From positions 1 through 20,006 of IMG/VR virus record IMGVR_UViG_3300044533_000620: a stretch of DNA of 20,006 nucleotides. One strand, written 5' to 3'. Under the pieces are notes generated by a model. It made no database searches. It had not been told where the DNA came from and saw only the letters and a program-made list of their open reading frames with translations. Shown here piece by piece: positions 1 through 16,986 of the stretch. Position 1 is the first letter of the stretch; each line of letters opens with the position of its first letter. The position numbers were made by a program, and so were the translations under genes. This DNA comes from a virus.

Positions 1-765
1 CCAAGCGGTGGTCTGCCCCTTTGAGAATACCTTTGTCCAACCCAGTGGCAGCAAGATCTCGTCCCAAGTCGTCTTTGCGTTGTAGTCGTCGCCTGGCAGT
101 GTCGAGTTCGCGTCCCGAGGCCTCTCCGTGACCTCTGAAGCTACCACCGACGCCTTTGGAAGTTGGTCGAAATATCTAAATAAGGAATGGAGACTTTCGC
201 GCTCGCCGACGCTGATAGTCGGGATTGTCTCAATCGAGCCCGAAATCAAAGACCAAGAACCACCTGACGGGTGACAAGACCCGCCGCTGGGGGCTGCAAC
301 CACGAAGCCACCCTCACCGCGGGTCTCGGCCAGCACATCAACGCCGTCGCCTGAAGCGGGGCGCCTAGCTAACTTTGTATTGCCTGGGACTTCGCCGTCT
401 ATGCGGTAGAACCAGTGCAGACCGCCGCTCGGGGTCATTTCGCAGTAGCCTTCGTTTAGCCGTTGCCAAAGTTCGCCAAGACCAGTTTCGATTGCCATGT
501 CTTTGATTTCGGTGTGAATGCCGTCAGCCACAGCGCGACCTTCGACTTCGAGCATCTCGAGATTGCCTGAGATCTTGCCCGTGATGATACCAACGCCCTT
601 GGCGTCTTTAAACCAAGACTGAAGCTCTTCAACGGTTGGCAGCTTGTGCTGGTACTCTTTCCACGCACCAATGCCAGGGCGCTTGGAGCCGTCTGCCATG
701 ACTGGCACAACCGAGCAGCCAGCTGCCGCGAATCTAAGCGCTGCTGTTAGCACCTCTAAGGACAT
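1..765 (-). CDS. Primase-polymerase (bifunctional DNA primase/polymerase N-terminal domain), 3' end cut by window
   Basis: The open frame runs 255 codons from ATG at 765 to the window edge without a stop, so the C-terminal part is missing. The N-terminus (residues 5-35, AAAGCSVVPV then KRPGIGAW) and VGIITGK (58-64) match the opening of the prim-pol domain. LEVEG (72-76) occupies the place of the family's paired acidic metal ligands, here E73 and E75. TPSGGLHWFY (111-120) carries the conserved His117, and TRGEGGFVVAAPSGG (148-162) is the usual closing block. In phages such proteins normally continue into a helicase domain and prime replication; that part lies outside the window. GGGGGGTGG sits 5 nt before the start. 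The structured RNA candidate lies immediately upstream. Confidence 0.85.
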   Translation of the reverse strand, partial: MSLEVLTAALRFAAAGCSVVPVMADGSKRPGIGAWKEYQHKLPTVEELQSWFKDAKGVGIITGKISGNLEMLEVEGRAVADGIHTEIKDMAIETGLGELWQRLNEGYCEMTPSGGLHWFYRIDGEVPGNTKLARRPASGDGVDVLAETRGEGGFVVAAPSGGSCHPSGGSWSLISGSIETIPTISVGERESLHSLFRYFDQLPKASVVASEVTERPRDANSTLPGDDYNAKTTWDEILLPLGWTKVFSKGQTTAW

Positions 766-797
766 CTAAGCCACCCCCCGTTCGTTGTTTGTCTTGT

Positions 798-898
798 GCG
801 GTGTTGGGCCTCGAACCCACTGCGTCCCGACTGACTTCCCCTTTCAGTTGTACGCACCGCGCCTTCCCTAGAGACCAGTGGAAGGATACTGCTCTAGG
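798..898 (-). ncRNA. Structured RNA candidate with a tRNA-like 3' domain
   Basis: This stretch between two genes has no convincing reading frame but folds well as minus-strand RNA. The 3' domain has a 6-bp closing stem GCGGTG (860-855) with CACCGC (803-798). Inside it is a T-arm: TGGG (819-816), the perfect T-loop TTCGAGG (815-809) and CCCA (808-805). There is also a hairpin ACTGA (848-844)/TCAGT (834-830), with CGT (854-852)/ACG (825-823) beneath it. The closing stem is followed by ACA, reminiscent of a tRNA 3' end. At about 63 nt it lacks a separate D-arm and a normal anticodon loop, so it is not a standard tRNA. The 5' part contains CTAGAG (897-892)/CTCTAG (873-868) and an alternative CCTTCC (885-880)/GGAAGG (867-862). 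Seen in sequence: the helices. Inferred: that it is a functional RNA. Confidence 0.45.
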
Positions 899-902
899 AA
901 AT

Positions 903-1346
903 CTAGAGAGGCTTAGCCCCGAGTTGAGCTAAAAGAGCCGCGACCTCGGGTGGCACTCCACCTGCTGCGGCTGGTGCTGGCGTTACTGTTGCCCCTGGCT
1001 TGTAAGCCGCGGCCTTGGCAATCGCTGCCTGATCTGCAGAAGCGTCCACAATAATCCATGGGGCAGTCTTGCCAGGCTTAGCCACACCTTGTTGAATGCG
1101 ACCGAGTACGCGCTGGCCGATTAACGGCCTGAGTGCGTTTCGAATGGCGATATTAAAAAAGAGGACATCGCTGTACTCTTGGTTGGTGTCAAGGTTGGTG
1201 ACGTCGCACGAAATCGCGTCAGCTGGACCGTTGACCGTCTCGATACCTGAGCGGTATTCGATTGGCTTGAAGATGAGCAACTGACCTTGCAAGTCAGCTG
1301 GTTTTGGACCAGCGCTTGCGGCGGCTGGCGAAGCGAATGCTTCCAT
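903..1346 (-). CDS. Conserved actinophage protein, possible ssDNA-binding role
   Basis: This is a 147-residue protein. Residues 21-85 are rich in beta-strand pattern (QLLIFKPIEY, DVLFFNIAIRN, GQRVLGRIQQG) and are followed by APWIIVDAS. The Ala/Pro-rich tail (about 105-147) looks unstructured. The pattern resembles a small conserved protein common beside actinophage replication genes, and an OB-like fold is possible, but no diagnostic motif is present. Its position between an exonuclease and a primase would suit a single-stranded DNA-binding protein; that is inference from context. The ATG overlaps the stop of the tiny upstream gene (TAATG), and AGGGGA stands just before it. Its stop lies in the sequence that can pair with the start of the RNA candidate. 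Confidence 0.75.
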   Translation of the reverse strand: MEAFASPAAASAGPKPADLQGQLLIFKPIEYRSGIETVNGPADAISCDVTNLDTNQEYSDVLFFNIAIRNALRPLIGQRVLGRIQQGVAKPGKTAPWIIVDASADQAAIAKAAAYKPGATVTPAPAAAGGVPPEVAALLAQLGAKPL

Positions 1347-1450
1347 TATTCCCCTACTTTCTGTTGGTTGGTGTTGGTGGTGGGTTCCTCTTCAGCAGAC
1401 TCGAGCATCTCTTTGATGATGTCGTTGATGGTTTTCTCAGGCAGTGTCAC
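1346..1450 (-). CDS. Tiny hypothetical protein, 34 residues
   Basis: A GTG start at 1450 lies 14 nt inside the end of the exonuclease gene, with AGAAGG 8 nt upstream. The frame ends in TAA, sharing one base with the ATG of the next gene. The product begins with an amphipathic helix (LPEKTINDIIKEMLESAEEE) and ends in a Thr/Asn/Gln-rich tail. Function is unknown. The overlaps on both sides fit the translational coupling seen across this region and are the main support. Confidence 0.5.
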   Translation of the reverse strand: MTLPEKTINDIIKEMLESAEEEPTTNTNQQKVGE

Positions 1451-2171
1451 CTGGGCACCCTTCTACGAGAGACTTACTGAATGGTTTGAAGTATGGACAC
1501 CAAGCACAAAGCCTGTCGGGCTCTGCGGGTATTTGACTCCAAATCTCGGGGTTGGCTTCGACATCTGCCGCGGCCAGTAGTGCGTGAATCGAGTCAAGGC
1601 GGCCCAAAGCGTTGAGCGCGACTTGCTCGTCGTAATCTTGTAAGACCATGACCATGTCTGTAAGCGAGCCTGACGTTGGTAGGTAGCAGAGTGCCACTTT
1701 TTTGACATCAGCGCCTTGCTGAGCGAGGCCGTAGGCGTAAAGTTGAACTTGAATGATATGCTGGGCATCAGCCCCAAACCTGCGGTACTTGTCCAGCTTG
1801 CTCGCGCCTGTCGTTTTCCAGTCGAGCACCACACCGTTCTTGATGTCAAAGAGATCGACCGTACCTGCGAGGTTGCCTCGGATTGTGACGCGCTGCTCGA
1901 TAAGAAAGCCTTCGCGCTTGCCGAAGACCTCTGCGAGGTACGCATGAATAGCAGTGCCAACCTGAGCGGCCCAAGAGCCACCCTGCATTTCGTTTGGCTT
2001 GTCCCAGTCGAGGAGTTTGTATGCGAGACGCCGAGTGCACTTGTGCCCAACTTCGCTCGGGCCGATTTGGATTTGCCCTGCTCTCGGCGACCAGATGCCC
2101 GCCTGTACGACGACGTCTCGGACTGCATTTGCATACTCCTCTTGGTCGCTAAAAAGTCTCGCGTAACTCAC
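1437..2171 (-). CDS. PD-(D/E)XK exonuclease, RecB/Cas4-like, with probable 4Fe-4S cluster
   Basis: This 244-residue protein has the full set of RecB-family nuclease marks. C45 lies in GHKCTRRLAY, H76 in VGTAIH, D106 in GTVD, D117-x-K119 in LDWKTTG, and a QxxxY-type motif in QVQLYAYG (143-148). Three further cysteines near the C-terminus (C222, C225, C239), together with C45, have the spacing of the iron-sulphur cluster of Cas4 and AddB. Such phage enzymes resect double-stranded ends for recombination or replication. No cas1 or cas2 is nearby, so a CRISPR adaptation role is not indicated. Translation starts at GTG, overlapping the upstream TGA (GTGA). The upstream coiled-coil gene 2250-2576 is a usual partner of phage recombination exonucleases. 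Confidence 0.88.
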   Translation of the reverse strand: MSYARLFSDQEEYANAVRDVVVQAGIWSPRAGQIQIGPSEVGHKCTRRLAYKLLDWDKPNEMQGGSWAAQVGTAIHAYLAEVFGKREGFLIEQRVTIRGNLAGTVDLFDIKNGVVLDWKTTGASKLDKYRRFGADAQHIIQVQLYAYGLAQQGADVKKVALCYLPTSGSLTDMVMVLQDYDEQVALNALGRLDSIHALLAAADVEANPEIWSQIPAEPDRLCAWCPYFKPFSKSLVEGCPGDTA

Positions 2172-2263
2172 TCGTCGTCCTCGTCCTCGTAGATTTCGTG
2201 GTCGGGGATATTTGGCTGACGACCCCAGTCAGGAGCTGGCACGATTGGGTCAACTATTGACAT
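2168..2263 (-). CDS. Tiny acidic protein, 31 residues
   Basis: The ATG at 2263 lies 14 nt inside the end of the upstream gene and the TGA overlaps the GTG start of the exonuclease. The product (MSIVDPIVPAP, ending IYEDEDDE) is proline-rich at its start and strongly acidic at its end. The ribosome binding site is weak, so it may depend on coupling from upstream. It could be a linker that couples two larger genes or a small acidic partner of the nuclease; nothing in the sequence decides between these. Confidence 0.5.
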   Translation of the reverse strand: MSIVDPIVPAPDWGRQPNIPDHEIYEDEDDE

Positions 2264-2576
2264 CGGGCTCAACTATCGTGAAGCGACGAGACTCGGACTC
2301 CCGAGACAGAAACGTGTAAATCTTGGGGTCCAAGATCTCTTTGGCCTTGGCGATATCAAGCCTGTAAGAGGTGACTTTGGTCCAACGAACTGCGACCTTG
2401 CCGTCAAGCAGGCCGATCTCGCTTTCGCCCATCATCTCTTGGATTTTGGCTTTCGCTTGGTCTAGCTTCTCCTCAAGGCTTTTGATCTCGCCCTGAGTCT
2501 TTCGGTAGAGTTCAATCCACGCAGCCACGTCGAGTGGCAGGTCGATCTTTGGTTTGTCTTTGTCGAATGCGCTCAC
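2250..2576 (-). CDS. Coiled-coil protein of the type found beside phage recombination exonucleases
   Basis: This is a 108-residue protein with a GTG start preceded by AAGGGGGA. Residues 20-52 form a coiled coil (KTQGEIKSLEEKLDQAKAKI). It is followed by the conserved block GLLDGKVAVRWTKV (55-68), then a Lys-rich helix and SRRFTIV near the end. The same arrangement, a short coiled coil then a 'DGK..VRW' strand and a 'RRF.I' ending, is familiar from small proteins or C-terminal domains next to YqaJ-type and RecB-type phage nucleases. Its position two genes before the RecB-like exonuclease agrees with this. No catalytic residues are apparent; an accessory role is inferred. Confidence 0.75.
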   Translation of the reverse strand: MSAFDKDKPKIDLPLDVAAWIELYRKTQGEIKSLEEKLDQAKAKIQEMMGESEIGLLDGKVAVRWTKVTSYRLDIAKAKEILDPKIYTFLSRESESRRFTIVEPDVNS

Positions 2577-2585
2577 TGTTCCCCC

Positions 2586-3002
2586 TTAGTACCAGTTGTG
2601 CTTCTTAAAATGAGCCCACGCGGCGCATGGCCCCCCTGAGCCGTACTTTCGCCCGATATAGGCGAGAGTTGCGACCAGCTGTGGCACTTCGGCATCTGAA
2701 TGCTTCATGCCAAGATTCTTGTAAGTTGCATCAAGTAGCTGTCCGATACCCGAAGCACTGCTGACAGGATTCTCTGCCTGGGGATTCCAAGCGCTCTCCT
2801 TGCCAATCAGCTGGGTGAAGCACTTGAACGATTTTTCGTGTAGCAACTCCCGAGCCACGGCCTTCGCGTCCACTTGCATCAGAATTGGTCGCTCGGCATA
2901 TACAATCGGATTCGCTGGAACTGCTGACAACAGGTTCGATGTCGTCGATATTGCTAGTGAAACCCCTAGTATTGTAATCATCTTTTGTGTTAGTGGGCGC
3001 AT
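2586..3002 (-). CDS. Secreted lytic transglycosylase-like protein
   Basis: The 138 residues start with a signal sequence or membrane anchor (MRPLTQK, then a hydrophobic stretch at about 8-30). The rest is a small lysozyme-like domain: LIGKESAWNP (65-74) carries the probable catalytic Glu69, SASGIGQLL (82-90) is the SLT-type second motif, and the protein ends in CAAWAHFKKHNWY. Family knowledge says this fold cuts peptidoglycan glycan strands. C61 and C126 could form a disulphide outside the membrane. GAGAGGAG precedes the ATG. It sits among DNA metabolism genes, far from the late lysis cassette, so it is probably made early. It might remodel the wall, block superinfection or help with lysis; the sequence does not say which. 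Confidence 0.75.
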   Translation of the reverse strand: MRPLTQKMITILGVSLAISTTSNLLSAVPANPIVYAERPILMQVDAKAVARELLHEKSFKCFTQLIGKESAWNPQAENPVSSASGIGQLLDATYKNLGMKHSDAEVPQLVATLAYIGRKYGSGGPCAAWAHFKKHNWY

Positions 3003-3022
3003 AAACGCTCCTCTCGGGCAGA

Positions 3023-3370
3023 TCAGAACTTTGGTTTGTCATAACCCGCCGCTTTCAATAGGTCGATGAAAATATGGAGTGGCACGATGGCGGGCCAATC
3101 CGCGATATGAGCTTCGCCTTGGCCGTCCAAGCGGAGTATTGCCACTGGCAAATGCCCCTCTTGGTACCTGTCTCGGAGTTGCTTCATAGCCTCGGCGACT
3201 TTAATCCCCCGCCGAGCTTTAACTTCGACATCAACCCCTATTACCCCAGTGATGTCGGTTCCCGATCTGCCTGACCCTGCGGGTTGCGCATATGGCCAGC
3301 CATTACTTCTGAAATACTCAGCGACGAGGCGCTGACTTTGGTACCCCCGTTGGACGCGGGAGCTGCTCAC
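3023..3370 (-). CDS. PD-(D/E)XK nuclease, Holliday-junction-resolvase-like
   Basis: I place the start at GTG 3370, giving 115 residues, because GGAG stands 6 nt before it and the codon overlaps the TGA of the upstream membrane protein gene (GTGA). The frame stays open upstream to an ATG at 3487, but that extension is the shadow of the neighbouring gene. The core reads E18 (LVAEYF), D39 (GTDITG), and E49-V-K51 (VDVEVKARRG), the arrangement of archaeal-type Holliday junction resolvases and related phage endonucleases. It is followed by a helix KQLRDRYQEG and a strand. The role is likely junction or branched-DNA cutting during replication and recombination, alongside the RecB-like exonuclease. 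A VRR-NUC-type or Mrr-type assignment is possible. Confidence 0.75.
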   Translation of the reverse strand: MSSSRVQRGYQSQRLVAEYFRSNGWPYAQPAGSGRSGTDITGVIGVDVEVKARRGIKVAEAMKQLRDRYQEGHLPVAILRLDGQGEAHIADWPAIVPLHIFIDLLKAAGYDKPKF

Positions 3371-3528
3371 CCAAGACTCCAAACTACCAGCACCAACACC
3401 CCTAAAAACAGGGTGATGAGGCGCCAGTTGACGGAGTTGGAGTCTTGAGCGGTCCCCCGCGATAACACTGCCTGAAACTTGAGCCATTGTGGGTCGATCT
3501 CAGACTTTGGTCTTTTTCGAGCTGACAT
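3367..3528 (-). CDS. Small single-pass membrane protein, 53 residues
   Basis: This gene is easily missed because it lies in another frame across the ends of two neighbours: 29 nt overlap the gene upstream, and its TGA overlaps the GTG of the nuclease. The ATG at 3528 has AAAGG 6-7 nt upstream. The product has a basic N-terminus (MSARKRPKSE), a polar middle and one strong transmembrane segment near the C-terminus (WRLITLFLGVLVLVVW, residues 35-50). Such a pattern would arise rarely by chance inside another gene. Function is unknown. An N-in topology is expected from the basic N-terminus. Confidence 0.75.
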   Translation of the reverse strand: MSARKRPKSEIDPQWLKFQAVLSRGTAQDSNSVNWRLITLFLGVLVLVVWSLG

Positions 3529-3775
3529 TTAAAGCCTTTCCCATTTCGTACTCTAACACAGCAGGCGAGTGGTACACGCCCACCGAAGTGGTAAGGTTAG
3601 AGCGAACGGCGAGCGCCCAAACGCTCGCAGGTAGTTGTAGTTTGAACCAGCTGCCATGCACGTTCTCCCCTAAGTAGGTGACGTTTGATGGTAGCGGCTC
3701 CTTAAGAATCGCCGAGACTTGCCGAGACCAGTTGTTGTCAGTCTCTACTCGGACCGCGTGTTTAAAAGAGTACAT
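3500..3775 (-). CDS. Hypothetical protein, 91 residues
   Basis: This is the first gene after the promoter at 3803-3831. The ATG is preceded by GGGGGAAGGA at good spacing. The protein has alternating strand-like segments (FKHAVRVETDNNW, WFKLQLPASVWALAVR) and a basic C-terminus (SSKKTKV). I do not recognise a family. Being first in the transcript that carries nuclease and replication genes suggests an early role. Confidence 0.7.
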   Translation of the reverse strand: MYSFKHAVRVETDNNWSRQVSAILKEPLPSNVTYLGENVHGSWFKLQLPASVWALAVRSNLTTSVGVYHSPAVLEYEMGKALNVSSKKTKV

Positions 3776-3802: not shown

Positions 3803-3831
3803 AGTATAGCACAGCGTGATGACATTTTCAT
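3803..3831 (-). promoter_or_regulatory. Extended -10 promoter for the nuclease/replication operon
   Basis: On the minus strand TATACT (3808-3803) is preceded by TGC, the extended -10 signature. Seventeen bases further upstream is ATGAAA (3831-3826), a four-of-six match to TTGACA. The site overlaps the purB stop codon and lies about 28 nt before the next ATG, so the leader would be very short. Confidence 0.6.
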
Positions 3832-5069
3832 GCCAACGACACGCCGTTCATTAGCCTGGCTTCGTTGAGTGCTGTTTTGATTATGGACAAAGCGTCCCAA
3901 GTGTGCTGGACATCAGCTGGCGGGCAGTTGCCCACACGCGCCCCCGTCTTTGCGGCCTTGTACGCCTCATTTCTAGTCATGCCATTTTTGATGTATTGGT
4001 TGAGCATGAAGGTGCTGCCTTCACTAGTATTGTAACGCATTCCAGCCTCGTTCACTCTGAGATCTCTGACAAGCTTGAAGGTCTCGGTCAGCACATGCTC
4101 AGTGATAGCGCAAAGGTCAGGCACTGCAATTCTTTCAACAGATGAGTGGCTGATGTCGCGCTCATGCCACAGAGCAACGCCCTCGGTAATCGGCATGACA
4201 TAGGCCCTGGCCATTTTGGCCAACCCGCAGATCTTTTCAGAAGTTATCGGGTTCTCCTTGTGAGGCATTGAGCTGGAGCCTTCTTGGTGCGCCGACCTAC
4301 CTTCAAACAGCTCTTTGACTTCAGAGCGCTGACCGTGCCTGACTTCAAGTGCGAAGGCTTCACAGATCGAGACTAGACTAGCCAGCGAGTATGCCCAAGC
4401 GCCGAGAGAGTCTCGCATTAAGACCTGCGTGGCACTGTCAGGCGCGTTAAGCCTGAAGCGTTTGGCCACGTCCAGCTCGACACTGCGGGGCACGTGGGCG
4501 TAGTTGCCCAGCGGGCCTGAGATATGGGCGACCTGCACATCATTACAGGCAGCAGCAAAGCGGTCAAGTCCCCTGCTGATAGCCAAGGCAAAGTCTGCAA
4601 CTCGATAGCCCCAAGTCGTCGGCTCTGCGAACTGCCCGTGAGTGCGTCCAATTCGTTTGGTGTCTTTATATCTCAGAGCGTGATCGACAAAGGCCTCGAG
4701 CAGTTGATAGCCAGCGTTAGCAATAAGCCAGTTGGCTTCAGATAGCAAGACGGCTTGCCCTGTCTCGACCACGTCAGAGCTGGTCAGCCCGTAGTGTAGC
4801 CACCTGTGTATCTCGCGGTTGTCGGTATTGCACCGCCACGCTTCAAGGAATGCCATGACATCATGCTTTAGGCGCTCTTCATGCCTTGCTACTTGGTCGG
4901 GTGAGGGCACAAGCGCCATTTCAAGAGCCCGCCACAGTTCGACTTCAATGCCGAACTGAGATCTGCCCTGAGACTTCATGACTTCAACCTCAATGGCAGC
5001 CCAAGTGGCGTACTTGTTTTCGTCTGACCAAACGTTCTGCATTTCCCGCGAGGTGTAGCGCCCAATCAT
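3828..5069 (-). CDS. purB: Adenylosuccinate lyase, phage-encoded
   Basis: The 413-residue protein is complete and near the length of short bacterial PurB. It opens with MIGRYTSREM and has HYGLTSSDVVETG (92-104), RTHGQFAEPTTWG (142-154, catalytic-type His144), SGPLGNY (184-190), the superfamily signature SSSMPHKENP (265-274, flexible-loop catalytic Ser with Lys271 and Asn273) and HERDISHSSVER (302-313). Known reactions are adenylosuccinate to AMP plus fumarate, and SAICAR to AICAR. It is the last gene of a chain of tiny genes, coupled by ATGA to a ribbon-helix-helix protein. No other purine gene is in the window. It could raise adenine nucleotide supply or complete synthesis of 2-aminoadenine nucleotides if a PurZ gene lies elsewhere; both are inferences. 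Confidence 0.95.
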   Translation of the reverse strand: MIGRYTSREMQNVWSDENKYATWAAIEVEVMKSQGRSQFGIEVELWRALEMALVPSPDQVARHEERLKHDVMAFLEAWRCNTDNREIHRWLHYGLTSSDVVETGQAVLLSEANWLIANAGYQLLEAFVDHALRYKDTKRIGRTHGQFAEPTTWGYRVADFALAISRGLDRFAAACNDVQVAHISGPLGNYAHVPRSVELDVAKRFRLNAPDSATQVLMRDSLGAWAYSLASLVSICEAFALEVRHGQRSEVKELFEGRSAHQEGSSSMPHKENPITSEKICGLAKMARAYVMPITEGVALWHERDISHSSVERIAVPDLCAITEHVLTETFKLVRDLRVNEAGMRYNTSEGSTFMLNQYIKNGMTRNEAYKAAKTGARVGNCPPADVQHTWDALSIIKTALNEARLMNGVSLA

Positions 5070-5212
5070 GCGGACCTTTTTGTTGTGAAATCGCGCAAGG
5101 CCTCGTTGATAACCTCAGAAATCGTGGTGTCTTTGCGTTTGGCCTGGGTTTTGGCTGCTTTCCACAGTTTGTCATTAACCCTGACGGTACGAATTGGTGT
5201 CTCTTTACTCAT
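5066..5212 (-). CDS. Ribbon-helix-helix DNA-binding protein
   Basis: The protein has 48 residues. The N-terminal strand TPIRTVRVND (5-14) is followed by two helices, LWKAAKTQAKRK (16-27) and ISEVINEALRDF (31-42), with a TT turn between them. This is the Arc/CopG/MetJ pattern, in which the strand binds DNA as a dimer. GGAG lies 4-5 nt before the ATG, and the TGA overlaps the purB start (ATGA), so the two proteins are made together. It could repress its own operon, for instance at the repeated dyad at 6349-6363 and 7634-7647; this is inference from arrangement only. Confidence 0.8.
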   Translation of the reverse strand: MSKETPIRTVRVNDKLWKAAKTQAKRKDTTISEVINEALRDFTTKRSA

Positions 5213-5358
5213 TTATCTCCCAACATGCATTCAGTCATGCCGCCCCAGCAGTAGCCGTCTCCGACCCACCACAAATGCCCCATCACTTGCCAAGTGGCAA
5301 CGATTGCCACAAGGATAAAAACAGCACGAACTCTCTTGCCTCGCTTTGTCAACTTCAT
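5209..5358 (-). CDS. Small membrane protein, 49 residues
   Basis: The start is ATG 5358, with GGGAG 5 nt upstream and an ATGA overlap with the preceding gene; its own stop also overlaps the next start. A basic N-terminus (MKLTKRGKRVR) leads into one transmembrane helix (AVFILVAIVATWQVMG), then an aromatic and Cys-containing tail (WWVGDGYCWGGMTECM). Topology should be N-in. I do not recognise the family. Confidence 0.7.
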   Translation of the reverse strand: MKLTKRGKRVRAVFILVAIVATWQVMGHLWWVGDGYCWGGMTECMLGDK

Positions 5359-5510
5359 CTGATCTCCCTCACCATTGATATCAAGGTCGCTGCCCAAATG
5401 TGAAAATCGCGTTCGCCGACTTCGTCAGCTGAACGACATTCGGCTGCTTGGTGCAAATGCCAATCCATTAGCTTCTTAAGCTCTACGTTTTCCTTAGCTT
5501 TGACGGTCAT
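5355..5510 (-). CDS. Hypothetical protein, 51 residues
   Basis: The start is placed at ATG 5510 because it overlaps the upstream stop (ATGA); an in-frame ATG at 5537 would lie inside the neighbour. The product is mostly helical with several His and Trp residues (LMDWHLHQAAECRSA, DFHIWAATLI). No family is recognised. Confidence 0.6.
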   Translation of the reverse strand: MTVKAKENVELKKLMDWHLHQAAECRSADEVGERDFHIWAATLISMVREIR

Positions 5511-5674
5511 TCGGCCACCGTCCAGCCTGAGTTCCACACGCCATTGTAAAAGCGTGCGACTGCCTCTTTTTCATCGATGTCGTAGTAGGTGCGTATCTCG
5601 ACCCAAATGTCGTGGCCGTTGTTAACGGGCGCTGAGATCTGCCAAGCGCCTCTGCTGGTCTTAATTATGTTCAT
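5507..5674 (-). CDS. Hypothetical protein, 55 residues
   Basis: The start is ATG 5674, with GGAG 7 nt upstream and an ATGA overlap with the previous stop. The frame is open further upstream but that part shadows the Cys-rich gene. The sequence looks like a small beta-rich domain (GAWQISAPVNNG, DIWVEIRTYYD, ARFYNGVWNSGW). No family is recognised. Confidence 0.65.
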   Translation of the reverse strand: MNIIKTSRGAWQISAPVNNGHDIWVEIRTYYDIDEKEAVARFYNGVWNSGWTVAE

Positions 5675-5823
5675 TCCTTGTCTCCTTCGTGACAATCGCA
5701 GTCGCACGGGCGGCGACGGCTGGGAAATGCGCCCATATGGGCGACTTTGGTACAGCTGGCATGACTGCCCAGGGTGCACCGAGCTGAAGTGAACTCCTTC
5801 AGGTATTCGCGAGCGCCGTTCAT
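5671..5823 (-). CDS. Cys-rich small protein, 50 residues
   Basis: ATGA overlaps bound it on both sides. Five cysteines (C16, C24, C40, C42, C44), with the cluster CDCDCH near the end, suggest metal binding. The middle is basic (PSRRRP). No known family is recognised. The strict coupling to its neighbours is the main reason to accept it. Confidence 0.55.
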   Translation of the reverse strand: MNGAREYLKEFTSARCTLGSHASCTKVAHMGAFPSRRRPCDCDCHEGDKE

Positions 5824-6095
5824 GCGGCCAACTCGATTCGCATTGTGTAAGTGCCGTCGTACTTTGCAACGGTTAGACCAAACTCGCGCAGTGCAGCGTC
5901 AAGCTTGGCGACATACTCAGCGCGCTGCTCGTCTGTGCCGTATGAACGAATGTACACTGAATCGCAAAGCTGCCAGGCGTTGATGCCGCGTGCGATAGTA
6001 GGGTGGTAGGCGCGAACTGCATCTACGTATGGAACACCAACCTTTTTGATTGTGGCGCGGACCTTGCTTGATGAAATGAGCGGGCGGTTTGCCAT
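5820..6095 (-). CDS. Hypothetical protein, 91 residues
   Basis: The start overlaps the preceding stop (TAATG). The N-terminus is basic (ANRPLISSSKVRATIKK), followed by a mixed alpha/beta body with GTDEQRAEYVAKLDAALREFG as a clear helix and a closing strand YTMRIELA. The pattern resembles small phage proteins of unknown function. Its ATGA end couples it to the Cys-rich protein. Confidence 0.65.
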   Translation of the reverse strand: MANRPLISSSKVRATIKKVGVPYVDAVRAYHPTIARGINAWQLCDSVYIRSYGTDEQRAEYVAKLDAALREFGLTVAKYDGTYTMRIELAA

Positions 6096-6331
6096 TATGC
6101 ACCCACTGTGACGCGGTCATTGATGCGGCATTCCTCGCACCAGTCTGCTACTTCATCAGCACTGCCCCAAAGACGGCGCTTGTTGGTGTCTTGAATGATT
6201 GAGCTGTGGTCCTCACATATTAGAAGCCACTTGCCACCATCATTGATGTCAAGTCCTTCGTCCTCTGTCAAGCAGATCGTGACTGTCACGGTCTCGCTTC
6301 CTACTAGTACCTTCTTGCTTTTGTATGTCAT
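6095..6331 (-). CDS. Hypothetical protein, 78 residues, first gene of second early chain
   Basis: The start at ATG 6331 has GGAAGGGG 6 nt upstream and lies just downstream of the promoter at 6349-6390. The frame is open to 6508, but the extra part would cross the promoter and a neighbour. Residues 5-22 form a strand pair (KKVLVGSETVTVTICL). A C-terminal segment has CEEC (DWCEECRIND), which might bind metal. Function unknown. Confidence 0.7.
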   Translation of the reverse strand: MTYKSKKVLVGSETVTVTICLTEDEGLDINDGGKWLLICEDHSSIIQDTNKRRLWGSADEVADWCEECRINDRVTVGA

Positions 6332-6348
6332 TTTGGGCCCCTTCCTGA

Positions 6349-6390
6349 GCTTATGGGATAAGCGTAGCACACCCGTGTATACGTTGTCAA
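6349..6390 (-). promoter_or_regulatory. Early promoter with downstream dyad, copy 2
   Basis: On the minus strand TTGACA (6390-6385) is followed after 18 nt by TACGCT (6366-6361), itself preceded by TGC. The dyad GCTTAT-GGG-ATAAGC (6349-6363) overlaps the -10 box and the likely transcription start. The spacer contains CGTATACACGG. The -35 box, spacer core and dyad recur almost unchanged at 7634-7675. Confidence 0.75.
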
Positions 6391-6404
6391 TACGACACGC
6401 CGAG

Positions 6405-6536
6405 CTACTTCTCAAACGCAGCCTCTTCCATAGTGTCGGGCTGGCCACAGGCGCAGAAATGCGCCATTTCGTCACAGATCTCGCAGACGTCACCGTAACC
6501 CCTGGCATGGTCGTCCTCGAGTATTGGCTCGCTCAC
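6405..6536 (-). CDS. Small Cys-rich (zinc-binding type) protein, 43 residues
   Basis: The GTG start at 6536 overlaps the upstream TGA (GTGA). The centre has CEIC then HFCAC (C18, C21, C28, C30, with His26), a zinc-knuckle-like spacing, set in an acidic protein. A longer form from ATG 6590 is possible but would run back over the neighbour. It is the last gene before the copy-2 promoter. Confidence 0.6.
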   Translation of the reverse strand: MSEPILEDDHARGYGDVCEICDEMAHFCACGQPDTMEEAAFEK

Positions 6537-6709
6537 TTGGACCACATATTGTGGTAGCGGCGAGTGACTACCGCCAGCTTGGCGGTGCATTCGATCAGAG
6601 TGTCATAAATCAACTCGGGCTCGCCGTCCTCGGTGGCATACTCTAGCTGCCTTGCGACTGCACGCATCTCGTCCTGCATGTCTATAAATACCTCTTTAAC
6701 TGCGCCCAT
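6533..6709 (-). CDS. Hypothetical helical protein, 58 residues
   Basis: The ATG at 6709 is preceded by GGAAGG at 8 nt. The product is predicted all-helical from its heptad-like pattern (VFIDMQDEMRAVARQLEYA and LIYDTLIECTAKLAVVTRRY). Function unknown. Its stop overlaps the next GTG. Confidence 0.65.
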   Translation of the reverse strand: MGAVKEVFIDMQDEMRAVARQLEYATEDGEPELIYDTLIECTAKLAVVTRRYHNMWSK

Positions 6710-6710
6710 T

Positions 6711-6857
6711 TCAATTACCTTCCGTTAGTTGGTGAAGTTTCTTGCCTAGCTGTTGTGCGTCCCATTGGCGGTTTGAACTAAAGCGCCTATCTTGAACCAT
6801 CGAGCCCAGCCCCGCCAGGATTATTTCGAACTCCTCGGGTGTCAGCTCCAGCTTCAT
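6711..6857 (-). CDS. Hypothetical protein, 48 residues
   Basis: The start is ATG 6857 in an ATGA overlap with the upstream gene. The opening MKLELTPEEFEIILAGL is a typical beginning of a small helical phage protein. It ends one base before the next ATG. No family is recognised. Confidence 0.6.
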   Translation of the reverse strand: MKLELTPEEFEIILAGLGSMVQDRRFSSNRQWDAQQLGKKLHQLTEGN

Positions 6858-7021
6858 GCGCTGGCTCTATTCGCCTCTTCAAGCGACACTTCTTTGATGT
6901 CCCACTCGCCGCCGCCAACCATGGCCGCAACTGCAAATGAAGCGGCCTCGCTCTGTGTGGCGTAGTAACGAACAGGGTGCCAGGTGCGATTTCTAAAAAT
7001 GCGAACTGCCCAAAGATTCAT
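6854..7021 (-). CDS. Hypothetical protein, 55 residues
   Basis: The ATG shares a base with the upstream TAA (TAATG), and its TGA overlaps the next ATG. The first half is basic and aromatic (NLWAVRIFRNRTWHPVRYYA), followed by a helix with Ala and an acidic end. It reads like a small phage protein that takes the shape of a short sheet plus helix. No family is recognised. Confidence 0.6.
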   Translation of the reverse strand: MNLWAVRIFRNRTWHPVRYYATQSEAASFAVAAMVGGGEWDIKEVSLEEANRASA

Positions 7022-7332
7022 TAGAGAAGTCCCTTCGCGATTTGAGCCAAAAGCTCTGCTGAGATGTCGCCGTCAAGTGTGACCTTGCTTGCGACGAGTC
7101 CCTTGCCTACGAACTTGATGACGCTGATGGTCTCGTCATCGGTTGCAAGGCGAACGCCCTCTGCAAGGTACATGCGGCCTTTGCTGTCAGTTAAAAGGCC
7201 AGTCTGCCCTTCTAACCAAATGTCAACGCCACCAAATGGGTTATCCTGTGGAACTGCGCATTCGCCGTCTGCGATTACTAGTAGGACTGCTTCGTCGATC
7301 TTTAGTGCTGTTGGTGTGGCTACTCCATTCAT
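7021..7332 (-). CDS. Hypothetical protein, 103 residues
   Basis: TAATG couples its start to the gene upstream. The sequence alternates short strands (AVLLVIADGECAV, MYLAEGVRLAT, ISVIKFVGKGLVASKVTL) and ends in a helix (AELLAQIAKGLL). It looks like a compact beta-rich domain; no motif identifies it. Confidence 0.65.
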   Translation of the reverse strand: MNGVATPTALKIDEAVLLVIADGECAVPQDNPFGGVDIWLEGQTGLLTDSKGRMYLAEGVRLATDDETISVIKFVGKGLVASKVTLDGDISAELLAQIAKGLL

Positions 7333-7601
7333 TATGCACCTGCCTTTGCAAGGTAGTTAAGCTCGCACTGCAATTCGTAGACTGCCATTTCGAAGTTCTC
7401 GATGTCGCGAATGTGGACGTCTGTAGCGACTGCCTCAAGGCGGTTGCCGATTTTGAAGTCTGTGCTGTCTGCGTTCCAAATCATTTCACGACCGACTAGG
7501 TAAAGACGGAACAAACCGCCGTCTTTGTAAGCGCGAATGTGGCCGTCTGCTGTCTTTGCGTAGCACTTGCCTAGCTCTGCTGCGTATTGTGTCTTTGTCA
7601 T
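7332..7601 (-). CDS. Hypothetical protein, 89 residues, first early gene
   Basis: ATG 7601 is preceded by GGAAGG at 7 nt and follows the copy-1 promoter (7634-7675) by about 35 nt. A longer frame to 7739 would translate the promoter and is rejected. The protein has a beta-rich front (HIRAYKDGGLFRLYLVG) and a helical end (ENFEMAVYELQCELNYLA). Being first in the early block, it could act early against the host; there is no direct evidence. Confidence 0.7.
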   Translation of the reverse strand: MTKTQYAAELGKCYAKTADGHIRAYKDGGLFRLYLVGREMIWNADSTDFKIGNRLEAVATDVHIRDIENFEMAVYELQCELNYLAKAGA

Positions 7602-7633
7602 TTTCTTGCCTTCCGTTCGTTGGTCCCTTTCGG

Positions 7634-7675
7634 GCTTATGGGATAAGTCTATTGTATCCGTGTATACGCTGTCAA
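7634..7675 (-). promoter_or_regulatory. Early promoter with downstream dyad, copy 1
   Basis: On the minus strand TTGACA (7675-7670) is separated by 18 nt from TAGACT (7651-7646). CGTATACACGG is in the spacer, and CTTAT-GGG-ATAAG (7635-7647) overlaps the -10 and start region. This is nearly the same element as 6349-6390. It drives the first early gene. The dyad is in the position of an operator. Confidence 0.75.
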
Positions 7676-7695
7676 TACAAGAGCAATATCGGCGT

Positions 7696-7715
7696 GGTGT
7701 CTTGTTTGTCACACC
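7696..7715. promoter_or_regulatory. Small dyad upstream of early promoter
   Basis: GGTGT and ACACC flank a 10-base T/G-rich centre, upstream of the early promoter's -35 box and downstream of the late terminator. It could be a protein binding site. Five-base arms are weak evidence. Confidence 0.25.
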
Positions 7716-7730
7716 TCGAACATAGCGAAA

Positions 7731-7765
7731 GACCCCCACCGCTGGGGGTGCCAGTGGTGGGGGTC
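7731..7765 (-). terminator. Strong hairpin terminator after the late operon
   Basis: GACCCCCACC (7731-7740) pairs with GGTGGGGGTC (7756-7765). Inside it a G-T pair and CTGG/CCAG extend the helix to 15 bp around the loop GGGTG. On the minus strand only TTT follows, so the U-tract is short. It lies between the last late gene and the first early promoter, the expected place for late transcript termination. Confidence 0.75.
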
Positions 7766-7779
7766 GTGGTAAAGGCTGG

Positions 7780-8004
7780 TTACTCGGCTACGTTCTTATT
7801 CGCCTCGAACTCGTCGGAGCCCATTCCGAACTGCTTTTCTTTAGGGTCGATGGCCTTGATGATAGGTCCAAGGACGGCTGCCAGTCCCGCGGCCGCGTAG
7901 TCGCGGAGTGGGCGGTTTGGGTCAGCTAAAAATAAGGCGGCGACTGCCGCTGCGGCTGCTCTGAGGTAGGTCTTGACGATAGGTGGGACAGCGTACTTGT
8001 TCAT
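7780..8004 (-). CDS. Holin candidate
   Basis: The protein has 74 residues with two hydrophobic stretches: YLRAAAAAVAALFLA (13-27) and AAAGLAAVLGPIIKAI (37-52). These are separated by a short polar turn with DPNRPLRDY, and the tail is acidic. It lies directly after the endolysin, with a start overlapping the endolysin stop (TAATG), and is the last late gene before the terminator. Small alanine-rich holins of this shape are common in actinophages. A second membrane protein at 8449-8676 could share or take this role. Confidence 0.7.
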   Translation of the reverse strand: MNKYAVPPIVKTYLRAAAAAVAALFLADPNRPLRDYAAAGLAAVLGPIIKAIDPKEKQFGMGSDEFEANKNVAE

Positions 8005-8477
8005 TATGCTCCTTTTTTGGGTCTAGCGATTGCCATGATGGTCTTGTAGGGGCGTCTCTTAATATAGAAGCCGTCGCCGTTGGACTGGCTACCCGTGGCG
8101 TTGCCGCTGGTGTTGCCTTCCCAAACGTTGATGTACTTCAAAGCGGTGTTGTGCCAGCGAACAATGCCGACGTGGTCAGGTTGTGCGTCATCGTCAAACT
8201 GGAAAAAGACCAGATCTCCGAGTTGCGCCTGTCCGATTGGGACCAACTGGTTGTTCTTGGTCAGGTATTTGAGCCACTCATCGCAAGAGGCAAAGCCTTT
8301 TGGCTTGGTCTTCGGTGCGACAGTGTCAATCATACCAGCTTCATGGTAGATCTTTGAGGCTGCCATAGCGCACCACGGTTGGTTATTAAGTCCAAACCAC
8401 TTGCCGAAGCTGGTGTTGTTGTTTGGCCCCTCGGTGTAGCCGACGTAACTATCTGCGGATTCTTTTAGGCTTTTCAA
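8004..8477 (-). CDS. CHAP-domain endolysin
   Basis: I place the start at TTG 8477 (157 residues), because AAAAGGGG lies about 6 nt upstream and the longer in-frame ATG at 8561 would overlap the upstream gene by over 100 nt. With this start the catalytic Cys36 lies in QPWCAMAASKIY, His102 in PDHVGIV, and an acidic third residue in VWEGNTSG (Glu120). GDLVFFQFD is the usual strand before the His. CHAP enzymes cut peptide bonds in peptidoglycan. No wall-binding domain is attached, so this is a minimal lysin. The 29-nt overlap with the membrane protein gene suggests coupled translation within the lysis cassette. Confidence 0.88.
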   Translation of the reverse strand: MKSLKESADSYVGYTEGPNNNTSFGKWFGLNNQPWCAMAASKIYHEAGMIDTVAPKTKPKGFASCDEWLKYLTKNNQLVPIGQAQLGDLVFFQFDDDAQPDHVGIVRWHNTALKYINVWEGNTSGNATGSQSNGDGFYIKRRPYKTIMAIARPKKGA

Positions 8478-8676
8478 CCTTGTCCCCTTTTGTGAGTATC
8501 TTGATGACGAGTTCCATTTGGCTCTCGAGTCTTGTGACAGAGTCTTTGAGGCTTGAACCACCGTTTGGCTTCAGTTCATTCAGGAAATGCTTGACGAGCC
8601 AGCGCACGGCCACAACAAACGAGCCCAGTATTGAGATGACTGCCAGTATTAGTGCAGCCCAGTCATTCACGGTCAT
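8449..8676 (-). CDS. DUF2746-like membrane protein of the lysis cassette
   Basis: Seventy-five residues with one transmembrane helix near the N-terminus (ALILAVISILGSFVVAVRWLV, about 8-28). A Gly/Ser linker, a coiled coil (LKDSVTRLESQMELVIKIL) and a very basic end (KVEKPKRIRR) follow. This layout matches the actinophage DUF2746-type proteins found beside endolysins, which are considered holin or antiholin candidates. AAGGAG lies 4-5 nt before the ATG. Confidence 0.75.
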   Translation of the reverse strand: MTVNDWAALILAVISILGSFVVAVRWLVKHFLNELKPNGGSSLKDSVTRLESQMELVIKILTKGDKVEKPKRIRR

Positions 8677-16290: not shown

Positions 16291-16986
16291 CTAGCTGTCT
16301 TTGTTGAGCTGCCTGTCAATGTGATGCCTCTCGTCAAGCCAGTAAGTCTTTTGGTGCGGCAAGATAGCCGCGGTGTTTGCGTAGATCGGAAAGCCCAGTT
16401 GTCTAATCCTGCGGCAAAAAAGCAGATCTTCACTTATCCACTCGCCATTGATAGGCCCGTCCCAAAACCAGCACCAGTCGGTGCCTTGATTTGGGTCTGC
16501 AGCTTCGCGCATTTTTTCAAGCACGCTGCGATGAATAAGCATGCACCCAGTGCCGCAAGCGTCAACCTCGAAGATCGAGTTGCGTTGGTAGTCGTTGATA
16601 GGTGCAAAGCCTTTGGGTGTGTCTTTGAATATTAGTGGCACGGGCACAGGGTAAAGGTTTTTATTGGCGTCCCAAGCCCCGAAGTACAGGCCCGCTATTA
16701 CTGGTCGCTCTTTGTCGTGTGCAGTGTTGATGAGTTGGTCGAATGCTTGCAACGACAGTTGTTCGTCAGCGTCGATCAGCAAAAGCCAATCGGAGTTGGT
16801 GTCGTCGAGAAAAGACTTAACTACTCGGTTGCGTAGCTTGCTAAGCAGACCCGAGCCTTTGGTACGCACAAACGGACCAAGCCTAGAAGACCGCGATTGT
16901 GCGAGTTGAATCATGCGAAAGGCGAAATCGCCGTTCACCATGCCAGGGTCACAGACCCCGATAGATATTTTGTGGCTTGCTTTCAT
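16291..16986 (-). CDS. Glycosyltransferase, GT-A type
   Basis: The 231-residue protein has the GT-A essentials: SDWLLLIDADEQLS (65-78) with the DxD motif at D72-D74, an acceptor-type motif ISEDLLFCRRIRQLG (184-198) with E186/D187, and a late His211 (LPHQK) that could complete metal binding. No membrane segment is seen. GGGGGAG precedes the ATG. It sits within the structural operon directly after the major capsid gene, so a role in sugar decoration of capsid or tail proteins is plausible; glycosylated virions are known among actinophages with such genes near structural genes. Modification of host surface or DNA is an alternative. Confidence 0.8.
   Translation of the reverse strand: MKASHKISIGVCDPGMVNGDFAFRMIQLAQSRSSRLGPFVRTKGSGLLSKLRNRVVKSFLDDTNSDWLLLIDADEQLSLQAFDQLINTAHDKERPVIAGLYFGAWDANKNLYPVPVPLIFKDTPKGFAPINDYQRNSIFEVDACGTGCMLIHRSVLEKMREAADPNQGTDWCWFWDGPINGEWISEDLLFCRRIRQLGFPIYANTAAILPHQKTYWLDERHHIDRQLNKDS

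Follow-up and report, generated by a model that had tools for sequence, protein, structure and literature searches.

The purB gene of this virus most likely encodes the lyase step of a virus-encoded pathway for 2-aminoadenine (Z), to judge from the genes that accompany it. Conversion of dSMP to dZMP, which has been assigned to host enzymes (PMC12884076) and for which bacterial PurB has been named (PMC12783734), would then probably be carried out by the virus itself. The DNA analysed, called the window here, is a single IMG/VR virus record of 20,006 bp. A sequence-only reading of it had proposed that a viral PurB could free a Z-DNA phage from the PurB of its host, provided that Z genes are found in the rest of the genome. 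Such genes are present in L058, a contig of the same lineage, and the proposal is supported. That reading also held that a lack of purine modification genes would count against the role; L058 encodes PurZ, a DmtZ homologue and a dUTPase.

purB and its neighbours in the window

The purB ORF (413 aa) is at 3828–5069 on the minus strand. It had been described as complete with its signature motifs, and every catalytic residue examined is indeed intact. Its ATG overlaps the TGA of a gene for a 48-aa ribbon-helix-helix (RHH) protein (5066–5212) by 4 bp, as ATGA. The minus strand of the window runs from head and tail genes through lysis genes (CHAP, ~8,000–8,560), a block of small genes, the RHH gene and purB to a replication module, which encodes a resolvase, a transglycosylase, a Gp157-like protein, an exonuclease, a phrog_870 protein and PrimPol. 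The features around purB are:

1–765, minus strand: 5' part of PrimPol (PF09250 and AAA_25), cut at the contig end
903–1346, minus strand: phrog_870 protein
1437–2171, minus strand: PDDEXK / Cas4-type exonuclease
2250–2576, minus strand: putative Gp157-like protein (phrog_434 / phrog_1956)
2586–3002, minus strand: transglycosylase (SLT) protein
3023–3487, minus strand: RusA-like Holliday junction resolvase (phrog_244)
3500–3775, minus strand: conserved 91-aa gene directly downstream of purB
3803–3831, minus strand: possible sigma70-like site in the interval from purB to the gene that follows, with TG ahead of the second hexamer (TATACT); the evidence is weak (2 such sites observed, 1.1 expected in shuffles)
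3828–5069, minus strand: purB, adenylosuccinate lyase, 413 aa (profiles, PDB matches, AlphaFold model, alignment, dN/dS)
5066–5212, minus strand: Arc-like ribbon-helix-helix protein, 48 aa (phrog_6506)
5209–7739, minus strand: small early-gene block upstream of purB (includes 5355–5537, 5820–6095, 6533–6709 and 7021–7332)

The next gene on the same strand begins 52 bp downstream of purB (at 3775), and same-strand genes run on to the contig end in PrimPol, so purB does not close an early operon, contrary to what had been thought. Elsewhere in the window, a glycosyltransferase-like gene (phrog_34859, 16291–16986) is located within the head-gene region.

The RHH protein matches phrog_6506 (Arc-like) over residues 4–45 of its 48 (E 9e-11) and has no match in Pfam. 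The earlier claim that it is coupled to purB stands for the window, where the two genes overlap, but the coupling is not constant among relatives, in which the small-gene block between the lysis genes and purB has two orientations. The block is directed towards purB, with the RHH gene adjoining and in most cases overlapping, in the window, L005–L010, L012–L014, L086, L088 and L090. In seven relatives (L016–L019, L021, L071 and L073) it is inverted, with the RHH gene at its far end, 1.3–2.8 kb from purB on the other strand, leaving purB on its own downstream of a divergent intergenic region. By visual comparison with the PurB tree, the orientation switched at least twice. Since the block flips with the RHH gene inside it, the RHH protein belongs to the block and could plausibly regulate its own expression.

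The PDB matches and the fold of the viral protein place it in the PurB family, and its profile matches are consistent with this. It matches Pfam Lyase_1 (E 2e-32), and its best model is TIGR00928 purB at 318.3 bits; the equivalog cut-off is 326.2, and a score below it is in line with a shortened C-terminus, from which the ca. 18 last residues of bacterial PurBs are missing. PurBs in the PDB match it at E down to 3e-74, and its AlphaFold model (pLDDT 89.1) has PurB structures as its top folds (TM 0.80–0.86). In an alignment of 29 PurBs, residues H69, H92, H144, S265/S266, K271, N273 and E278 are invariant and the signature loop SSxMPHKxNP is kept; the correspondence of H92 and H144 was read from an alignment with PDB PurBs. 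The bacterial enzymes of T. maritima (1c3u), B. anthracis (2pfm) and S. aureus (2x75) share the fold and the catalytic residues with the viral protein, while identity to them is 32–36%, the viral protein is without their C-terminal end, and it belongs to a separate lineage. Three changes are specific to the viral group: D to E102, P to R195 and A to S267. No change in the pocket was found that marks a preference for a 2-amino or deoxy substrate, and reading specificity from the sequence was abandoned, as it was not possible to locate the group-specific changes with respect to purine C2 or ribose 2'.

Z-DNA genes in the lineage of the window

A search of the 20,006-bp record with PF00709 found no purZ, because the contig stops inside PrimPol, just before the position of purZ in relatives. 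A scan of IMG/VR with the PurB yielded 19 relatives, and a scan with the PrimPol N-terminus yielded contigs of the same lineage. A PF00709 synthetase is encoded a few kb downstream in 9 of the 20 records then searched, and in relatives one small gene separates PrimPol from purZ. L058 is 97.6% identical to the window over 774–3775 and 96.0% over 1–758 at the nucleotide level, which places the two in the same species-level lineage by sequence. Its gene order is PrimPol, a 112-aa gene, PurZ, a 128-aa gp51-like gene, a nucleoside deoxyribosyltransferase and a dUTPase.

The PurZ of this lineage has serine in place of Asp13 of PurA – the motif is GGQYGSEGKG in L057–L061, which belong to the lineage of the window, and GGQ[YF]GSEGKG in relatives. 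The bacterial PurA in these data reads GLQWGDEGKG, and the aspartate is kept in the bacterial PurA of L133 and in L216. The change from aspartate to serine has been reported for all 147 phage PurZ (PMC12884076). The best PDB match of the viral PurZ is 7vf6, a PurA-like synthetase, and a PurZ tree puts it in the PurZ0 group, together with Ghobes, Lennox, Galactica and Hiyaa and apart from VP2, ZP6, JeffCo and OH. The DmtZ homologue carries PF05014, and residues Y6, D12, P57, N77 and E103 of Ghobes DmtZ, which were those mutated in PMC12884076, are invariant in it. The dUTPase is 42–46% identical to Ghobes DutZ and may be a DutZ or a plain dUTPase. The 128-aa protein encoded after purZ has kinship to Ghobes gp51. 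A MazG/MazZ identity for it is not supported, as it has no Pfam match, does not match the PF18909 protein of Lennox and gave a low-confidence model.

A search for DatZ, run without a positive control, found none in the clade. PF00476 (PolA) was absent from the 20 records, two apparently complete genomes included. The gene set is of the PurZ0 type (DmtZ and a DutZ-like dUTPase), not PurZ/DatZ/DpoZ.

Two apparently complete relatives, G013 (34,098 bp) and G015 (35,464 bp), have a common end between an HNH gene and the small terminase gene (...CAGAGAC), and contigs in which the HNH–terminase junction is joined have ca. 10 extra bases there (CCCGCTGCCC). Both are apparently complete linear genomes with cos overhangs. 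Neither contains a family A or B DNA polymerase, which leaves PrimPol as the only polymerase candidate. PolA is treated here as usual in PurZ0-type Z phages, not defining, since S-2L manages without it (PMC8065100). The matches of the large terminase are overwhelmingly to actinobacteriophages, and this lineage of freshwater siphoviruses therefore probably infects Actinomycetota.

Several other features of these contigs are of interest. The gp51-like protein (6709–7092 in L058) matches phrog_474 weakly. This family is labelled phosphofructokinase, yet the gene beside purZ in Ochrobactrum phage OH (L245, 1–275) also bears the label, and such matches near purZ make it doubtful. A gene for a C5-cytosine DNA methyltransferase (PF00145 in L061) is located just upstream of PrimPol in L009, L010, L012, L014, L015, L060, L061, L065, L081 and L086–L088, and is absent from the window and L058. 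Collagen-like repeats (GPTGATG...) are found in a structural-region protein (2538–4190 in L034, 9591–11429 in L059).

Linkage, ancestry and selection of purB

The purB gene is carried by 26 distinct contigs of the clade, down to 59% identity. Both purB and purZ are present in each of the 16 contigs long enough to cover the two loci (L007, L011, L012, L013, L015, L017, L019–L022, L071, L079, L080, L086, L088 and L090; at contig ends, purB is partial in two of them and purZ in one). Clade contigs with purB alone stop before the position of purZ, and no clade contig was seen that spans the purB site without purB.

In deposited phages, the PurB matches in Streptomyces (5 records) and Gordonia (6 records) equal the PurZ matches in number, and Galactica, Hiyaa and Ghobes, each checked, have both. 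Among 35 further PurB-positive IMG/VR records outside the clade, 19 encode a PF00709 synthetase (16 Ser-type and 3 Asp-type), counts that include related and so non-independent records. A scan of IMG/VR with the Ghobes PurB found Ghobes itself alone. Among Arthrobacter and Microbacterium phages, 105 and 18 records respectively match PurZ and none of these matches PurB, which would therefore be an improvement to the PurZ0 pathway and not a requirement of it.

In annotated isolates, PurB occurs chiefly in Hiyaavirus and Ghobesvirus records and in Microcystis phage MaAM05 (L004, MW495066.1; 274 kb), which has no PF00709 match. The purB of MaAM05 lies among genes for FtsH, LepA, ProS, MetG and GabD, and its product is 70% identical to the PurB of a Vampirovibrio MAG; this context and kinship suggest that the record may be bacterial DNA. 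Five records of 62–427 kb (L219, L220, L224, L225 and L227) have, in addition to PurB, a divergent PurA homologue of ca. 400 aa with the motif WGSSGKGK, in which Asp13 and Glu14 are both serine. The four intact homologues group with PurZ of the VP2 type, and these records possibly represent a second family of phages with Z or a different modified purine. The PurZ-like ORF of L227 (820 aa) looks interrupted by an intein (CCGEDTYITTNRG...). In L221, a P-loop nucleotide-kinase-like domain precedes a Ser-type PurZ in a single fused protein of 563 aa.

A tree of 74 PurB sequences compared 24 from phages with Ser-type PurZ (16 of the clade, 5 Hiyaa-type and 3 from L184, L189 and L197) with 38 cellular PurBs, thinned from the 80 best matches, and 12 from other phages. 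The PurB of Ghobes and six others on long branches were removed before the final tree, after long branches had joined each other. The 24 are on one side of a branch with UFboot 100 and SH-aLRT 96. The viral PurB is not nested among the sampled cellular PurBs, and simple host acquisition, which nesting would have indicated, is not borne out. The dN/dS of purB is 0.03–0.05 between the window gene and its relatives and 0.03–0.12 in all pairs tested; the gene is under strong purifying selection.

These results bear on the explanations that do not involve Z. If purB were a passenger, captured recently from a host and without selected function, one could understand that the nearest cellular PurBs are actinobacterial (41–45% identity) and that L058, L074 and L077 start precisely on the ATG of the gene that follows purB, a position that suggests removal of purB as host-like during construction of the database. 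The low dN/dS, the presence of the gene in 26 relatives with none seen to span the site without it, and its position outside the host PurBs in the tree refute this reading, which is extremely improbable. A general metabolic role, with the viral PurB raising the supply of AMP/dATP (or AICAR) and no special link to Z, is rather unlikely. The catalytic residues and fold of PurB are ordinary, three large viral records pair PurB with an Asp-type PurA, and bacterial PurBs accept both adenylosuccinate and SAICAR, all of which would suit such a role. However, purB is strictly linked to Ser-type PurZ in the clade, no other purine-synthesis gene was recognised in the gene list of one apparently complete relative, and the adjoining DutZ/DmtZ-type enzymes would lower dATP and dAMP (PMC12884076).

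Another modified purine, such as an N6-modified 2-aminopurine, could also be the product of the PurZ/PurB pair, with a shifted substrate for PurB or PurZ. The three group-specific changes in PurB and a gene set without the PolA that other PurZ0 phages carry point in this direction, but the residues associated with the Z pathway as known are retained in PurZ and DmtZ, and PurZ falls inside the PurZ0 group, which makes a different purine quite improbable.

Related phages and the proposed pathway

As a lyase of the Z pathway, the viral PurB would act in the following sequence. The DutZ-like dUTPase would hydrolyse dATP and dGTP and shift the nucleotide pools, and the DmtZ homologue would cleave dAMP. 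PurZ, of the PurZ0 type, would join aspartate to dGMP to give dSMP, from which the viral PurB would remove fumarate to give dZMP; host kinases would take dZMP on to dZTP, and PrimPol would copy the genome with it. The phage steps other than that of PurB rest on characterised homologues, and the PurB step on known PurB chemistry and the linkage. From these we infer the substrate of PurB in vivo, the presence of Z in the DNA, and the benefit, whether in flux or in independence from host PurB. It is possible, and put forward tentatively, that this is a dedicated viral PurB lineage tuned to dSMP, giving a full route from dGTP to dZMP and Z-DNA regardless of host PurB, with replication by PrimPol and without DpoZ.

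The closest known systems are in cultured actinobacteriophages. The Streptomyces phages of Hiyaavirus (Galactica, Hiyaa, Spocter and Keanu) resemble the clade in having a PurB (40–42% identical, in the same tree group), a Ser-type PurZ (50–55% identical), and a gp51-like domain and dUTPase in one region. They differ in their 81–83 kb genomes, DNA polymerase I and gene order, and their PurB is ca. 460 aa, with a longer C-terminus. The Gordonia phage Ghobes (Ghobesvirus), a PurZ0 phage with characterised DutZ and DmtZ (PMC12884076), shares PurZ0, gp51, DmtZ, a PurB gene and a primase/polymerase with the clade, whose dUTPase may be the counterpart of its DutZ. Unlike the clade, it has DNA polymerase I, and its PurB is ca. 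30% identical, too divergent for the tree, and encoded on the strand opposite to that of purZ. The Wayne/Lennox type of Arthrobacter phages has PurZ0 and the deoxyribosyltransferase and dUTPase, fused in this type, but has PolA, no PurB match, and a DUF5664 (PF18909) protein that was not recognised by sequence in the clade. Cyanophage S-2L, whose Z-cluster is PurZ, MazZ, DatZ and PrimPol (PMC8342488, PMC8065100), likewise has a PurZ-type synthetase with PrimPol as its only polymerase; it uses DatZ and MazZ, whereas the clade has PurZ0, DmtZ, a DutZ-like protein and PurB. Neither PurB nor adenylosuccinate lyase is mentioned in these two S-2L papers.

The literature searched, with the 2023 PurZ0 and 2021 Science papers outside its coverage, held no report of a phage PurB with Z-DNA. 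Annotations of Hiyaavirus and Ghobesvirus already show PurB beside PurZ, and the pairing is therefore not of a new kind. As far as this literature shows, what is new is a third lineage, uncultured and compact, that combines PurB, PurZ0, DmtZ and PrimPol without PolA, together with the finding that Z-phage PurBs group separately from their cellular counterparts, and the strict linkage of purB to purZ.

The lineage offers a compact candidate set for Z-DNA – PurZ, PurB, DmtZ, dUTPase and PrimPol in a genome of ca. 34 kb. That a PurB lineage has been kept with PurZ suggests that the conversion of dSMP to dZMP can limit infection, or that it merits securing.
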